The notes beneath the pieces were generated by a model. It ran no database searches, was not told where the DNA came from, and saw nothing but the letters and a program-made list of their open reading frames with translations. Below, piece by piece: positions 53,336-62,125 of a stretch of DNA of 64,000 bases; the first letter of the stretch is position 1; every line of letters begins with the position of its first letter. Source of the stretch: Desulfurivibrio alkaliphilus AHT 2 (GTDB lineage Bacteria > Desulfobacterota > Desulfobulbia > Desulfobulbales > Desulfurivibrionaceae); assembly GCF_000092205.1 (NCBI RefSeq), contig NC_014216.1:1431742-1495741 (forward strand), written 5' to 3'. Position numbers and translations under genes: made by a program.

Positions 53336-53689
53336 ATGGCCGTCAAGACCCCACCTAGCAGATATTCAGCCGACTGGCTTGATAAGTTGGATGGACGCTC
53401 CAGGGTATACCAAGTACTCAAGCAGCGCCACGACAATATCTTGTCCGACCTGGGCGGCCCTGAAGGCATGAGCTATGCTCAACGGGCTTTGGCTTCGCGG
53501 GCTGTCTGGCTGGAATACTGGATAGAGCAGCAAGAGCGCAACCTTGCCAACGGCGGAGACTTCGACAGCGGGCGATATACGCAGGCTTGCAACTCGTTGA
53601 TGGGCTTGCTCGCCAAGCTGGGATTGAAGCGCCAAGCCAAGGACATAACCCTTGCTGATTACATTAAACAGCGGGAGGCCAGCGCGTGA
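53336..53689 (+). CDS. Putative small terminase subunit or terminase-associated protein
   Basis: A 117-residue helical protein with charged N-terminal part (SADWLDKLDGRSRVYQVLKQRHDN) and a C-terminal block MGLLAKLGLKRQAKDITLADYI that I associate with proteins encoded directly before large terminases. There is no clear helix-turn-helix. GAGG precedes the ATG at good spacing. Its stop overlaps the GTG start of the terminase gene (GTGA), a strong sign of partnership. The small-terminase label rests mainly on position. Confidence 0.6.
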   Translation: MAVKTPPSRYSADWLDKLDGRSRVYQVLKQRHDNILSDLGGPEGMSYAQRALASRAVWLEYWIEQQERNLANGGDFDSGRYTQACNSLMGLLAKLGLKRQAKDITLADYIKQREASA

Positions 53690-55083
53690 ACATCATTCAG
53701 GCGGCCCAAGACCCGGCGCTTTTTGCCCGGTGGTTTAAGCAAGGTGACTGGTCGGCCTGGTTTGCCTTTTTATCAGCCGTTTTTGGCCTGGAGATGAACC
53801 AGGAGCAGCGGCGGATATTTGAAACCTGCACAGGTCGCCAGAAAGCGCCAGAAAGCCCTGTCAAGGAAGCCTGGCTAGTGGTGGGCCGTAGGGGCGGCAA
53901 GAGCTTCACAACGGCCCTGATAGCCGTTTACCTGGCCGCATTTCACGATTACCGCCAGTTTCTCCAACCCGGCGAGCGGGGAACGGTCTTGATTCTCGCG
54001 GCAGACCGGAAGCAGGCAAGGACAATATTCCGCTACGCCCGCGCCATGGTGCTGGAAATCCCAATGCTGGCCGGGTTACTGGAGCGCGAAACAGCGGACG
54101 GCCTGGAGCTTAAAAACAGCGTGTCCATTGAGATTGCCACCGCCAGCTACCGGGCCACCCGTGGTTATACAGTGGTGGCCGCCCTGCTGGATGAGATAGC
54201 GTTCTGGTTTACAGACGGCGCGAACCCTGACCACGAAATCGTCAACGCCATTCAACCCGGCATGGCGACCATTCCCAACGCCATGATGCTGGTGCTGTCC
54301 TCGCCCTATGCCAAGCAGGGCGAGTTATACCGCGCCTACCGCGAGAGTTTCGGGGCAGATGACCCGGAAGTTTTGGTTTGGCAGGCAGACACTAAGACCA
54401 TGAACCCCAGCGTACCCGACCGCATTATTCAGCGGGCATATGACAGAGACCCGGCAGCGGCGGCGGCAGAGTATGGCGGGCAATTCCGGGATGACTTAGA
54501 GCAATTTGTTTCCCGCGAGGTGGTGGACAGCTGCACCCGTGAGGAACCTACCGAACTGCCGCCGATCTCCAGTAATCGGTATTACGGTTTTACGGACCCT
54601 TCCGGCGGGAGTGCTGACTCAATGACGCTTGCCATTTCCCACCGTGAGGGCGACCGGGTAGTAATTGACGCGGTACGCGAGGCAAAGCCACCGTTCAACC
54701 CCTCGGACGTGGTGAAAGAGTTTGCCGCCTGCCTGAAGGCTTACGGTTTGCGCCGTGTTACTGGTGACCGCTACGGCGGCGAATGGCCCCGCGAGCGTTT
54801 CCGGGATGCAGGGATTGAATACGACCTTGCCGACCGTGCCCGCACAGAACTTTATCGCGACATGCTGCCCATGATGAACGCGGCAAATATCGAGATTCCG
54901 CCCGTTGTGAAATTAACGGGCCAATTAACAAACCTGCAACGGCGCAAGGGCCGGAGCGGCAAGGACATTATCGACCACCCGCCAGGCGGTCATGACGACC
55001 TGGCTAACGCGCTAGCGGGTGCGGCAGTAATGGCAGACGGGGCCGACACATCAAGGCGGCTCCATAACTTAGTAACTTGGTAA
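53686..55083 (+). CDS. Phage terminase large subunit
   Basis: A 465-residue DNA-packaging motor. The ATPase has Walker A WLVVGRRGGKSFTTALIAVY near residue 65 and Walker B TVVAALLDEIAFW; a coupling motif VLSSPYAKQGELYRAY follows. The RNase H-like nuclease has acidic sites in YYGFTDPSGGSADSMTLAIS, RVTGDRYGGEWPRE and GGHDDLANALAGAA. All motifs look intact and the length is normal, so it is likely active. The start is GTG within a GTGA overlap. No portal, protease or capsid gene follows, which is unusual next to a terminase. Confidence 0.92.
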   Translation: MNIIQAAQDPALFARWFKQGDWSAWFAFLSAVFGLEMNQEQRRIFETCTGRQKAPESPVKEAWLVVGRRGGKSFTTALIAVYLAAFHDYRQFLQPGERGTVLILAADRKQARTIFRYARAMVLEIPMLAGLLERETADGLELKNSVSIEIATASYRATRGYTVVAALLDEIAFWFTDGANPDHEIVNAIQPGMATIPNAMMLVLSSPYAKQGELYRAYRESFGADDPEVLVWQADTKTMNPSVPDRIIQRAYDRDPAAAAAEYGGQFRDDLEQFVSREVVDSCTREEPTELPPISSNRYYGFTDPSGGSADSMTLAISHREGDRVVIDAVREAKPPFNPSDVVKEFAACLKAYGLRRVTGDRYGGEWPRERFRDAGIEYDLADRARTELYRDMLPMMNAANIEIPPVVKLTGQLTNLQRRKGRSGKDIIDHPPGGHDDLANALAGAAVMADGADTSRRLHNLVTW

Positions 55084-56749: not shown

Positions 56750-57352
56750 TCACTTTTCGGCAAACGACTGCACCTGATAGGTTTCCACCTTTAGCTGGCC
56801 GCTCTGCCAGGCTGTCGCCGGCAAGCCGGCTTTGAGACAGAGCTGGGCAAGAAAATTTTCCGGTTGGGGCAACTGCTTCCATACCTGGGGCAAAAAGGTG
56901 GCGGACAAGCCGCCCTGCTCAATCAATACGCCATCCCGGTCGGGACGCAGCCTCGCCACCAGTTCCTCGGAACCCTGGTAGCTTAAAGGCTTCAACGGGG
57001 TCAGCACACTGATCTCTATTTGCACCGCTGCTAATTCCTCGACACTCAAGCCGGGGAAACGGGGATCGCCAAAAGCGGCTTTCAGCGCGTTATCCCGCAC
57101 CCCTTCCACGATGCTGCCCACCGGTTGCAGGCTGCCGATGCACCCCCTTAGCTGCCCGTTGCTTTTCAAGGTCACAAAGACCCCCCGCCGCTCCTGCAGG
57201 CGAGGGGAAGCCAAGGTTTGGCTGATCTCACCAGGGGGATCGGCGACGGCCTGCCAAAGTCGTTGAGCAATGGTCTGCCGGGCCAGCCACAACAGGGCCT
57301 GACCATCTTCCAAAGTAAGTTTGTCTACCGCCGTAGACGTACCGGGCTCCAT
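56750..57352 (-). CDS. amrA: AmmeMemoRadiSam system protein A (AMMECR1 domain)
   Basis: A 200-residue AMMECR1-fold protein. Family blocks are RGVFVTLKSNGQLRGCIGSL (with the conserved RGCIG), LKAAFGDPRFPGLSVEELAAVQIEISVLTPL, RDGVLIEQGGLSATFLPQVW and a C-terminal FLAQLCLKAGL. The ATG at 57352 has GGGGAGG seven bases upstream and is preferred to an in-frame start at 57418. The radical SAM partner amrS is at 19151-20164; no Memo-type gene is seen in the window. Confidence 0.92.
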   Translation of the reverse strand: MEPGTSTAVDKLTLEDGQALLWLARQTIAQRLWQAVADPPGEISQTLASPRLQERRGVFVTLKSNGQLRGCIGSLQPVGSIVEGVRDNALKAAFGDPRFPGLSVEELAAVQIEISVLTPLKPLSYQGSEELVARLRPDRDGVLIEQGGLSATFLPQVWKQLPQPENFLAQLCLKAGLPATAWQSGQLKVETYQVQSFAEK

Positions 57353-57394
57353 GACAAGTCCTCCCCTGCCGCTTAAAGGTGAACCTTCACAACA

Positions 57395-57429
57395 AAAAGC
57401 CCCCGGTGCCGAAGACACCGAGGGCTTTT
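57395..57429 (-). terminator. Rho-independent terminator after the HesB-like gene
   Basis: On the minus strand AAAAGCCCTCGGTG and CACCGGGGGCTTTT form a stem closed by a UCUUCGGC-type tetraloop region, followed by TTGTT. It lies 24 bp after the selenoprotein stop codon and before amrA. Confidence 0.85.
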
Positions 57430-57452: not shown

Positions 57453-57791
57453 TTAACAGCCGCAGGAACCACCGGCAGTGCTGCAGGAACTGCCGCATCC
57501 GCCGCCACCCAAGGGGTTGGCTGGGGTGATGGAGAAACCGGAGCGCGCCCCGGCATCGATGAAGTCGATCTTCACCGCACCGCACTGCTGGCTCAGGCCA
57601 TTGTCGATCAGGTACTTTACACCATCCTGGGTATGGGTGGTGTCGTTTTCTTTTGGCTCATCCAGAGCCAATCCCAGTGAGGGACCGGCTCACCCGCCCT
57701 GCATTAGGGCCACGCGTACTGGAGAATCAATACTGTTGTCCTCCAGGTAGGCCTTCAGTTTTTTGCTTGCCAATTCAGTTATTTCCAGCAT
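57453..57791 (-). CDS. HesB/IscA-like selenoprotein (in-frame UGA at codon 34)
   Basis: A 112-residue protein that is only complete if TGA at 57690-57692 is read as selenocysteine. The N-terminal part is MLEITELASKKLKAYLEDNS, then VRVALMQGG, Sec34, and AGPSLGLALDEPKEND. It ends with FIDAGARSGFSITPANPLGGGGCGSSC and a Cys-rich tail. The Sec position matches the first conserved cysteine of HesB/IscA iron-sulfur proteins, and HesB-like proteins are a known Sec-containing family in Desulfobacterota. AGGAGG precedes the ATG at six bases, frame use is unbroken on both sides and a suitable hairpin follows the UGA. A nonsense mutation is the alternative but is less likely. Confidence 0.9.
57653..57671 (-). 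promoter_or_regulatory. SECIS-like hairpin downstream of the UGA codon
   Basis: On the minus strand TTGGCTC-TGGAT-GAGCCAA forms a 7-bp stem whose five-base loop (TGGAT) starts 26 bases after the UGA. The second loop base is G, as expected for bacterial SelB-binding hairpins. A competing 11-bp stem starting in the UGA itself (GAGCC...GGCTC, 57665-57691) shares the GGCTC strand. Confidence 0.6.
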
Positions 57792-57961
57792 AAGATGCCT
57801 CCTGTAAGAAACCTTTCTTTAAGGTTATTAATAAGGTTGATTAGCTTAACTTCAACCACTTCCAACTTTAGAGAAAACTTAAGCTATTCTCGCCGATAAG
57901 TCAAGGGGCTGGATAAACAATTGTCGAAAAAGAGATTGCCCCTTTTTACCACTCCGGGGTA

Positions 57962-58045: not shown

Positions 58046-59143
58046 ATGAAAAAAATTGTTATTTCCACCGGCGGCGGTGACGCCCCGGGGCTCAACGCGG
58101 TGATTTACGCGGTAACCAAGTCGGCATATCAGCGGGGATGGGAGATATACGGCAGTAAGAGCGGCTACCGGGGCCTGCTGGACCCCGATGAACTAATTCG
58201 CCTTACCCCTGAAAAGGTGGAAGATATCATGCCACTGGGGGGAACCATCCTGGGCTCCACCAACAAGGGCAACCCCTTTGCCATGCCGGTGGAAAATTTG
58301 GCCGGCGAGATCCAGACCCTGGACCTGTCCGACCGGATTATGCGCAACTTCCGGCGGTTGGGTTTTTTCTGCCATATCGCGGTGGGCGGCGACGGCAGTC
58401 TGGAAATCGCCCACCGCTTTGCCCAAGAAAAAGGGATGCCGGTGATCGGGGTGCCCAAGACCATCGACAACGACCTGGAGGCAACCCAACGCACCTTCGG
58501 CTTTGATACCGCCGTCTCCACCGCCACCGAGGCCTTGGACAAACTCCATTCCACCGCCAAATCCCACGACCGGGTGATGGTGGTGGAGGTGATGGGCCGG
58601 GATTCCGGCTGGATTGCCTTGAACGCCGGCATTTCCGGCGGGGCCGACGTTATCCTGATCCCTGAAATCCCCTTTGACATCGAGCTGGTCTGCCAAAAAA
58701 TCAACGATAACGAACTACGGGACAAACATTACGCCATTGTGGTGGTGGCCGAAGGGGCCAAGGCTCGGGGGATGAAAAAAGCGGTGTGCAAAAAAAACTG
58801 TGAGTTGGGCCGGGACGGGGAACTGCTGGGAGGAATAGGGGAATGGGTGGCGGAACATATCCGCAAGCTCACCGGTAAAGACACCCGCTCGCTGACCCTG
58901 GGGCACCTGCAGCGGGGGGGCTCTCCCACCACCTTCGATCGCCTGCTGGCCCTGCGTTTCGGCGGGGCGGCGGTGCGCATGGCCGAACTTGAACTTTTTG
59001 ACCACATGGTGGCCCTGAAAACCCCGGACATGGCGGCAGTACCCCTGGCCGAAGCGGTAAAGGGCCGCAAAAAGGTGGAAGTCAACAGCGACAAACTGCT
59101 CACCGCCCGGGAAATCGGCATCTGTTTCGGGGATAACAACTGA
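58046..59143 (+). CDS. pfkA: 6-phosphofructokinase
   Basis: A 365-residue phosphofructokinase starting MKKIVISTGGGDAPGLNAVIYA (the usual Cys of GGDCPG is Ala). The phosphate-donor site reads IAVGGDGSLEIAH, with Gly typical of ATP users, while the next loop reads GVPKTIDNDLEATQ, with Lys typical of pyrophosphate users. Further motifs are EVMGRDSGWIALNAGISGGADVILIPEIPFD and LGHLQRGGSPTTFDRLL. This combination occurs in mixed-donor group III enzymes, so the donor cannot be fixed by eye. GGGAG precedes the ATG at 58046; an earlier in-frame start at 57962 lies in the promoter. Confidence 0.92.
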   Translation: MKKIVISTGGGDAPGLNAVIYAVTKSAYQRGWEIYGSKSGYRGLLDPDELIRLTPEKVEDIMPLGGTILGSTNKGNPFAMPVENLAGEIQTLDLSDRIMRNFRRLGFFCHIAVGGDGSLEIAHRFAQEKGMPVIGVPKTIDNDLEATQRTFGFDTAVSTATEALDKLHSTAKSHDRVMVVEVMGRDSGWIALNAGISGGADVILIPEIPFDIELVCQKINDNELRDKHYAIVVVAEGAKARGMKKAVCKKNCELGRDGELLGGIGEWVAEHIRKLTGKDTRSLTLGHLQRGGSPTTFDRLLALRFGGAAVRMAELELFDHMVALKTPDMAAVPLAEAVKGRKKVEVNSDKLLTAREIGICFGDNN

Positions 59144-60740
59144 GTAATGTCCCAACCTACCGATCTACATTTTAAAGCCTGGCCCTGGCTGCTGGCTTTC
59201 ATTGCCCTGCAGGCAACCGGGCTCGCGGTGCTGTTCAAATTCACCCATCTGTCACTGACCGACCCCGACCTGCAAAGCCTTTACGGTTGGCTGGCAGTCG
59301 CCGCCGTGGTCACCAACCTGATTTTTTGGCTGATCCTGCGCCAGACCAGCATCCTGCGCCGAACCCAATTGGAGTTGCAGAACAGCAAAACCCGGTTGGA
59401 GGAATCCCAGCGGATTGCCAAAATCGGCCATTGGGAATGGGATATCGAAAAAGAGCATCTGTTCTGGTCGCCGGAGTTGTACCGGATTTTCGAGCGCCGG
59501 CCCGAACAGTTTCAGGCCAGCTACCAGGCCTTCCTGGCCACTATCCATCCCGATGACCGGGAACTGGTCCAGAAGGAGGTCAATAAATCGCTGGAACGCC
59601 ATCTCCCCTACAGCGTTGATCACCGCATCATGCTGCCCGGCGGAGCGGAAAAGTTCCTGCGTGAAACCGGCGAACTGCTTTTTGACCAGAAGGGCAAGCC
59701 GTACAAGATGCTGGGCACGGCCCAAGATATCACCGCGGAGAAAACGGCGGAGCAAGAACTGCACCATCGCATGCAGATGCTGACCTTAACCGCGGAGGTC
59801 GGCATGATGCTGACCCGCAACACCCCCCTGGAAACCATCCTCCAGGAATGCTGCAAGGCCATGGTCAGACACCTGGACGCCGCCCTGGCCCGCATCTGGT
59901 TGATCCCAGAAATGGACTCCAGCCTGATCCTGACCGCCAGTGCTGGCCTGCACACCCGACTTGACGGAGAGTTTTCCCGGATACCCATCGACCCCCGCAC
60001 CAAAATCGGCGATATCGCCCTGCACCGCCGGGCCAAAGTTTCCAACCAACTGCTCAATGACCCCCAAATCAGAAACCCCCGCTGGGTTGAACAGCACAAG
60101 TTACGGGCGATGGCCGGCCACCCGTTGGTCATCGACGGCAAAGTGGTCGGGGTTATGGCCTTTTTCACCCGCCACCACCTGCCCCAGTCCATTATCGAGC
60201 CCCTGGCCACGGTGGCCGACATCGTCGCCCTGGGCCTGGAGCGCAAACAGACGGAAGAGCGGCTGCGGGTGCGAGCCAGGATCATCGAGGAACTCCACGA
60301 TGCCATCATCACCACCACCCCCGACGGCCTGATCAGCAACTGGAACCGTGGGGCCGAGCGCCTGTTCGGCTACACGGCCGCCGAGGCCCGGCAGCAGCCG
60401 TTGCACTTTTTTCTGCCCCCGCATGAACTGGATTTTTTCCAGTCGGAAATCCTGCCCCGGGTAGAGGAAAAGGGCAACCACCAGTTTGAAATTGAAATCC
60501 AGACCCAAAACGGCCTCCATCGCCATGCCGACTTTTCCCTTTCACGGCTCAACCGCGACAGTTTTATCGGCGGCGGCCTGATCTGTTACGCCCGGGATAT
60601 CACCGAGCGCAAGCAAAGCGAAGAAAAAATCAGGCTCTCCCGCCAGCTCCTGGATGAGACCAGCGAGGCGGTGGTGATTACCGACGCCGACGCAAAGATC
60701 ATCGAGGTCAACCGGGCCTTTGAAAAGGTCACCGGCTACT

Positions 60741-62125
60741 GGGTTATAGTCAAATCTGGTGTATGGGATAACTGAGGAAAATGGCGTATCATCCAGGTTG
60801 ATTGATCACCACGACGATCACAGCCAACACAGGAGGATACGCCATGACCAAGTCTACCCCAACCGCTCTTTCACAACAAGGAAACAATGTCGCCGACCCG
60901 CTTACCGACCTTTTGCGCGATGGTGCCAGGATGCTGATTGCCCAGGCCGTAGAAGCTGAATTACAGGCCTTCATGGCCCAATACTCCAGCCGCTTGGAAG
61001 ATGGCCGCAGGACAGTGGTCCGAAACGGCTATCTTCCCGGTCGCACGATCCAGACCGGAATCGGCGATGTCGAGGTCAAAGTTCCCAAGGTGCGAGATCG
61101 TAGCGGCCAAGGCCTCAAGTTCAACAGCAGTTTGTTGCCGCCTTATCTGAAGCGGGCGCGCAGTGTCGATGAGTTGCTGCCCTGGCTTTACCTGCGAGGA
61201 ATTTCCACCGGCGATTACCAGGAGGCCCTGGCCGCACTCCTCGGGGAACAGGCCAAGGGGTTGTCGGCCAACACCATCTCCCGCTTGAAAGCCAAATGGC
61301 TGGCCGAGCACACCAAATGGCGGCAACGTGACCTGAACGGAAAACGCTACGTTTACTGGTGGGTGGATGGCATCTACAGCAACGTCCGCATGGATGACAA
61401 GCTTTGCCTGCTGGTGATCATTGGAGTTACCGACCAGGGGCACAAGGAACTGATAGCGGTGGAGGATGGCTACCGGGAGTCAAGCGACAGCTGGTATGAA
61501 CTTCTCGCCGGGCTGCGGGCTCGGGGCCTGACCACAGGCCCCGAGTTGGCGGTTGGCGATGGTTCCTTGGGGTTCTGGAACGCCTTGGGCAGGGTCTATC
61601 CGAAGACCCGCCACCAACGCTGCTGGGTTCACAAAACGGCCAACGTGCTGAACAAGATGCCCAAAAAGCTTCAGCTCAAGGCCAAGGCTGATTTGCATGA
61701 TATCTGGATGGCTGAGACCAAGGAAGATGCCAGCCAGGCTTTTGATCGTATGCTGGCCCGTTTCGAAGACAAATACCCCAAGGCCATGGAGTGCCTGGCC
61801 AAGGACCGGGACGAGTTGCTGGCTTTTTACGATTTTCCAGCCGAACACTGGGTGCATATCAGGACCACCAACCCCATCGAGTCGGCCTTTGCCACTGTGC
61901 GCCTGCGCAGCAAGAGATCACGGAACTGCGGTTCCAGGGACACCACCCTGACCATGGTCTTTAAGCTGCTGCAAAGCGCTGAAAAAAGATGGAAAAAGAT
62001 CAAGGGATTTCGCCGGCTGGCTGAGGTCGTCACCGGCATACAATTCAAAAACGGAATCAAGGTGTCAGATCAACCTATGCGGATGGCCGCCTGAGGACTC
62101 CGTACACCAGATTTGACAATAACTC
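60741..62125 (+). mobile_element. IS256-family insertion sequence
   Basis: A 1385-bp element. Its ends are inverted repeats of about 25 bp that match at 22 positions (60741-60765 and 62101-62125), with the shared block GTCAAATCTGGTGTA. A 9-bp direct repeat CCGGCTACT flanks it (60732-60740 and 62126-62134), which is the target duplication. One transposase gene fills it. Perfect ends and duplication show a recent insertion. Confidence 0.95.
60844..62094 (+). CDS. Transposase, IS256/Mutator family
   Basis: A 416-residue transposase. The first 90 residues hold LQAFMAQYSSRLEDGRRTVVRNGY and EVKVPKVRDRSG. The DDE triad is in YVYWWVDGIYSNVRMDD (first Asp), LAVGDGSLGFWNALG (second Asp) and NPIESAFATVRLR (Glu), with the typical HQRCWVHKTANVLNKMPK segment between. 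AGGAGG lies seven bases before the ATG at 60844; an upstream in-frame start at 60802 is less likely. No stop or frameshift is seen, so it may be active. Confidence 0.95.
   Translation: MTKSTPTALSQQGNNVADPLTDLLRDGARMLIAQAVEAELQAFMAQYSSRLEDGRRTVVRNGYLPGRTIQTGIGDVEVKVPKVRDRSGQGLKFNSSLLPPYLKRARSVDELLPWLYLRGISTGDYQEALAALLGEQAKGLSANTISRLKAKWLAEHTKWRQRDLNGKRYVYWWVDGIYSNVRMDDKLCLLVIIGVTDQGHKELIAVEDGYRESSDSWYELLAGLRARGLTTGPELAVGDGSLGFWNALGRVYPKTRHQRCWVHKTANVLNKMPKKLQLKAKADLHDIWMAETKEDASQAFDRMLARFEDKYPKAMECLAKDRDELLAFYDFPAEHWVHIRTTNPIESAFATVRLRSKRSRNCGSRDTTLTMVFKLLQSAEKRWKKIKGFRRLAEVVTGIQFKNGIKVSDQPMRMAA

Follow-up and report, generated by a model that had tools for sequence, protein, structure and literature searches.

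A probable HesB-like selenoprotein of the IscA fold in Desulfurivibrio alkaliphilus

When a bacterial gene for a protein of the iron-sulfur (Fe-S) carrier type holds a UGA where related genes hold a cysteine codon, is that UGA read as selenocysteine (Sec), and what might Sec then do in such a protein? The question is raised by a small gene of Desulfurivibrio alkaliphilus AHT2, a haloalkaliphilic sulfidogen (PMC5016858) with a genome of one contig of 3,097,763 bp. The gene lies in the 64,000-nucleotide stretch of that contig analyzed here (NC_014216.1, positions 1,431,742 to 1,495,741), which we call the window. An original prediction, made from the letters of the window alone, proposed a HesB-like selenoprotein at 57453-57791. 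These coordinates prove exact, and the strand, left unstated there, is minus: the gene runs from ATG at 57791-57789 to TAA at 57455-57453. Reading TGA as Sec (U) gives one open frame, MLEITELASKKLKAYLEDNSIDSPVRVALMQGGUAGPSLGLALDEPKENDTTHTQDGVKYLIDNGLSQQCGAVKIDFIDAGARSGFSITPANPLGGGGCGSSCSTAGGSCGC, and translation confirms the proposed TGA at codon 34, in the context MQGG-U-AGPSLGLAL, with the frame open on both sides. The good ribosome site and the terminator that the prediction described are also found, at 57803-57798 and about 57429-57395, respectively. The features of the gene are as follows.

57453..57791, minus strand: gene for the probable HesB-like selenoprotein, a product of 112 residues with Sec34 (translation with TGA as U; NF038090; Pfam Fe-S_biosyn; structure model)
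57690..57692, minus strand: in-frame UGA, the predicted Sec codon 34 (homologue codon tally)
57653..57671, minus strand: apical hairpin of a predicted bacterial Sec insertion sequence (bSECIS), UUGGCUC-UGGAU-GAGCCAA, loop 57664-57660 (bSECIS constraints; frozen synonymous codons; stem pairs)
57798..57803, minus strand: ribosome binding site AGGAGG, six bases before the ATG (sequence; GGAG in homologues)
About 57395..57429, minus strand: probable intrinsic terminator, a strong GC-rich hairpin with a T-run (sequence)

A purine-rich GGAG precedes nearly all homologues of the gene.

Family membership and the codon at position 34

The selenoprotein reading draws on four lines of evidence: the decoding machinery of the genome, cysteine homologues aligned at the UGA, a conserved SECIS element, and a match to a curated family named for its selenoproteins. 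NCBIfam NF038090 (IscA_HesB_Se) matches over its full length, 1-101, at 152 bits (cut-off 85), so that both halves of the frame do fit a single HesB/IscA protein, and we found no relevant difference from that family. Pfam Fe-S_biosyn is reached narrowly (26.9 bits, cut-off 26.3). The stretch UAGP, beginning at U34, corresponds to UxGP, the motif that PMC13188914 assigns to HesB-like selenoproteins. In this Sec position and in a bacterial SECIS the protein resembles the HesB-like selenoproteins of Geobacter, Desulfovibrio, Syntrophus, Desulfuromonas and Methanococcus (PMC1794560, PMC13188914; TIGR01911). Unlike members of TIGR01911 (HesB_rel_seleno), it scores below the cut-off of that model (41.7 against 66.35 bits) and thus belongs to the NF038090 subfamily. 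This is a kind of selenoprotein already known and curated, and the expectation that automatic annotation would yield a fragment or a pseudogene was overstated: with a dedicated NCBI model in existence, the gene may well be annotated.

The genome also carries all four genes for Sec synthesis and insertion, which disposes of the worry that the machinery might be missing. The tRNA for Sec (selC) scores 73.2 bits, above the Rfam cut-off, and its anticodon is UCA by ARAGORN; selB reaches 350.9 bits against a cut-off of 242, selA 632.6 bits, and selD 384.2 bits, the last with one in-frame TGA of its own. That selD gene (contig positions 2436357-2437286, locus L020) probably makes selenophosphate synthetase a selenoprotein as well.

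Homologues show how position 34 has been treated over evolutionary time. A profile search with NF038090 across 257 genomes of the same class placed 228 of them above the cut-off; most of the matches listed contain a single TGA, and any stop inside those matches is that single TGA. From fetched loci, the codon at the Sec site could be read in 87 distinct genes: it is TGA in 71, TGC in 10 and TGT in 6, and neither TAA nor TAG in any. The cysteine homologues, 16 in all, align at the UGA, and the protein sequence beyond it is conserved through to the C-terminal cysteines. Of 70 distinct TGA genes whose 3' ends were tallied, 49 also terminate in UGA, so it is context that must distinguish the two UGAs of such a message, which is what SECIS decoding provides. 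A family tree of the Sec and Cys genes requires 9 changes between the two states, at least 3 of them forced by well-supported branches, from an alignment with too few columns to order them all.

Sec and Cys copies stand in tandem in several genomes (loci L027, L035, L036, L039, L052, L056, L061, L067 and L073), possibly as selenium-dependent isogene pairs. The Cys copy at L039 retains most of the SECIS hairpin sequence.

The SECIS hairpin and a competitor

A bacterial SECIS is expected to have an apical loop of 3-9 nt with a G within its first two positions, an upper stem of 4-16 bp, a UGA-to-loop spacing of 16-37 nt and a folding energy of -7.5 kcal/mol or below (PMC13188914). The hairpin UUGGCUC-UGGAU-GAGCCAA satisfies all of these published rules, with a 5-nt loop, G at loop positions 2 and 3, a 7-bp stem, a spacing of 25 nt and an energy of -10.1 kcal/mol. 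The G-containing hairpin noticed in the original prediction is therefore real, although the 26th base after the UGA, where it was said to start, opens the loop UGGAU rather than the stem. We did not treat this single-sequence hairpin as proof, since 135 of the 1739 TGA trinucleotides in the window (7.8%) pass the same rule and the evidence it provides is correspondingly weak.

Comparison among homologues is far more telling. Within the hairpin, the TGA genes all but fix their synonymous choices (Ala GCT 70/70, Leu CTG 71/71, Asp GAT 69/71, Glu GAG 70/71), and synonymous entropy over codons +8 to +12 falls to 0.0-0.3 bits, against 0.9-2.2 bits in the Cys genes. Codons just before the hairpin and flanking columns vary in the same TGA genes, at 1.2-1.9 bits. 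The TGA genes keep a mean of 6.73 of the 7 stem pairs, compared with 3.83 (sd 0.12) under synonymous resampling. Covariation is limited because most stem pairs are invariant across the 71 TGA genes, but a compensatory double change from C-G to U-A in a remote homologue (L037) preserves the stem, and nine genes show a change from G-C to G-U. Taken together, TGA or cysteine in 87 of 87 genes and a synonymous freeze confined to TGA genes lift the hairpin far beyond chance. One Cys gene, L030, retains a SECIS-like hairpin that still passes the bSECIS rule; Sec-to-Cys conversion with such a remnant is known among HesB-like selenoproteins, as reported for the HesB-like gene of Desulfitobacterium hafniense (PMC1794560).

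The Rfam model SECIS_1, run genome-wide, and all Rfam families, run on the locus, gave no SECIS match; since the SECIS_1 control was equally silent, this negative carries no information. SECIS_1 describes the animal type of SECIS.

A second structure competes for the same bases. An 11-bp hairpin that starts at the UGA (57692-57665, minus strand; -22.6 kcal/mol, z -4.7) has the lowest energy of any fold of the isolated 53-nt RNA, and is also the preferred fold in close relatives of the window; because it uses the UUGGCUC arm too, it and the SECIS stem are mutually exclusive. Could this be the functional recoding element, in place of the hairpin at +19 to +37? Beyond its stability, the mean energy of the stretch over TGA genes lies below column shuffles (0/200), which is suggestive only, as the shuffles ignore relatedness and the figure is no probability. 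The 11-bp hairpin has no G in the first loop positions and lies too near the UGA for a bSECIS, its codons are not frozen, and many relatives lack it, so we consider such a role very improbable. Nor need it block the SECIS, for its 5' arm would presumably be covered by the ribosome during a pause at the UGA.

The same comparisons bear on the prosaic alternative that a hesB gene here carries an ordinary nonsense mutation or a sequencing error. In its favor, the standard code reads UGA as a stop, and a Cys paralogue in the genome (described below) could take over. Against this stand the recurrence of TGA at one codon in the 71 genes across the order, the conservation of the downstream protein to its end, the restriction of the SECIS freeze to TGA genes, and the full Sec machinery; on this comparative record, a pseudogene or sequencing error can be considered excluded.

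Sec insertion at UGA 34 is, in short, supported by every sequence test available, and we regard the D. alkaliphilus gene as very probably a genuine bacterial selenoprotein, with its UGA decoded as Sec; this confidence attaches to identity and decoding, not to role. In the mechanism we envisage, the hairpin lying 19-37 nt downstream would direct SelB to deliver Sec-tRNA at codon 34. The complete protein would have the IscA fold, carry a selenolate at the position of the first IscA cysteine, and end in a flexible tail rich in Gly, Ser and Cys.

An IscA fold and the role of Sec34

What might this selenolate do? The predicted structure (mean predicted local distance difference test, pLDDT, 82; predicted template modeling score, pTM, 0.70) retrieves with Foldseek E. 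coli IscA (1r94, 1s98), E. coli SufA and [2Fe-2S]-bound IscA (1x0g), at E values of 8e-7 to 3e-6. The protein shares this fold with the A-type carriers IscA, SufA and ErpA, and in the alignment its Sec34 falls opposite the first conserved Cys of IscA; it differs from them in its tail, in its score against the general A-type model and in sequence, at 22-25% identity. A-type carriers are defined by a Cys-Xn-Cys-X-Cys motif (PMC7144353). Here the first tail Cys of IscA aligns with Gly97, and the tail cysteines are C99, C103, C110 and C112. A further cysteine, Cys70, has no counterpart in IscA and is conserved in most members, within a conserved CG.IKVDF motif. By alignment and model, the protein has the A-type fold and one ligand position, without the whole defining motif. 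The claim that Sec replaces a cluster ligand is accordingly overstated: it holds by position, at the first IscA cysteine, whereas the defining C-terminal Cys-X-Cys is not conserved.

As the most likely role we tentatively favor, at a little under even chances, that of a variant A-type carrier, serving a bacterium that metabolizes sulfur anaerobically. Sec34 and the tail cysteines would transiently hold iron, an Fe-S cluster or sulfur/selenium species and then pass them on. Several points weigh against this. The canonical Cys-X-Cys is not kept, the tail reading G97-G98-C99-G-S-S-C103, and tail residues 97-112 are predicted at pLDDT under 50. The general A-type model TIGR00049 is not reached: the protein scores 50.1 bits in the genome search, and 58.3 with Cys in place of Sec, against a cut-off of 58.8. 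Finally, the only genetic test we found comes from Methanococcus maripaludis, in which a mutant disrupted in its HesB-like gene fixed nitrogen normally and the function was described as unclear (PMC11097638). The single link to nif-type cluster assembly that has been put to a test therefore failed.

The complement of related proteins also informs the choice. The only A-type-fold proteins found in the genome are the Sec protein and one Cys paralogue, with no third found. The paralogue, which matches NF038090 at 107 bits, adjoins hdrA/mvhD-like genes, and it too falls short of TIGR00049. It carries an extra Cys-rich insertion, SSGCGCGGGG (contig positions 3068868-3069182; locus L010, 1474-1815, minus strand). 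Among 27 genomes of the same family, nine have a canonical A-type carrier (85-91 bits), in most cases alongside the Sec gene, so the Sec protein and the canonical carrier are not simply interchangeable.

That co-occurrence suggests a separate job, and it lends some weight to a second possibility: that the protein keeps the IscA fold but carries no Fe-S cluster, handling redox chemistry or metals and metalloids instead, for example soft-metal or selenide/sulfide chemistry through Sec34 and the tail cysteines. The loss of the canonical Cys-X-Cys in favor of a Cys-rich tail would suit such a protein, as would the family-specific Cys70 in an otherwise conserved motif; selenoproteins are for the most part regarded as redox enzymes, and metal binding is considered possible at some Sec sites (PMC13188914). 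On the other side, Sec sits exactly at a ligand position of an IscA fold, the proposed protein has no known partner or substrate, and no metal-resistance genes were recognized among the recurrent neighbors. We hold this a serious possibility, at roughly one chance in three by our reckoning, somewhat behind the variant carrier.

A stronger form of the carrier proposal, in which the Sec selenolate is a true ligand of iron or of an Fe-S cluster in what would be, with the Cys paralogue, the bacterium's only A-type-like carrier, strikes us as unlikely. Were it true, nature would here have built a carrier whose cluster has a selenolate ligand, with Sec chosen for its transfer chemistry under sulfidic, alkaline and anaerobic conditions.

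Genomic setting and outlook

Two neighbors of the selenoprotein gene recur among its homologues.

58046..59143, plus strand: 6-phosphofructokinase (pfk), divergent neighbor (TIGR02483, 444.5 bits)
56750..57418, minus strand: AMMECR1 / AmmeMemoRadiSam protein A, downstream neighbor on the same strand (TIGR04335, 197.3 bits; PF01871)

The divergent upstream pfk is found at 37 of 57 flanked sites and is kept across the order, while the downstream neighbor is AMMECR1 at 12 sites, as here, and clpB at 14. Such shared gene order shows orthology over many families, not function.

Other features of the surroundings were seen in passing, with families assigned by eye. Beyond pfk, on the plus strand, a PAS/GAF-like sensor gene (59147-60775) is seemingly truncated by the transposase-like gene that immediately follows (60802-62094); in one close relative (L023) a much longer, uninterrupted open reading frame (ORF) occupies the sensor-gene site next to pfk. 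An ORF at 53686-55083, also on the plus strand, has terminase-like features and is followed by small ORFs, possibly the remnant of a prophage or mobile element. The terminator hairpin of the selenoprotein gene aligns with the attenuator stem of a sub-threshold Rfam His_leader match, which covers both the 3' end of the gene and its terminator and was set aside as a terminator resemblance.

The D. alkaliphilus gene is a clean, well supported member of a known selenoprotein family, one whose function has been in question for some two decades. The freeze of synonymous codons also illustrates how well comparison among homologues, by itself, can map a SECIS. The order-wide set of 71 Sec and 16 Cys genes, including several tandem Sec/Cys pairs within one genome, offers natural paired material for asking what Sec adds to an IscA-fold protein.
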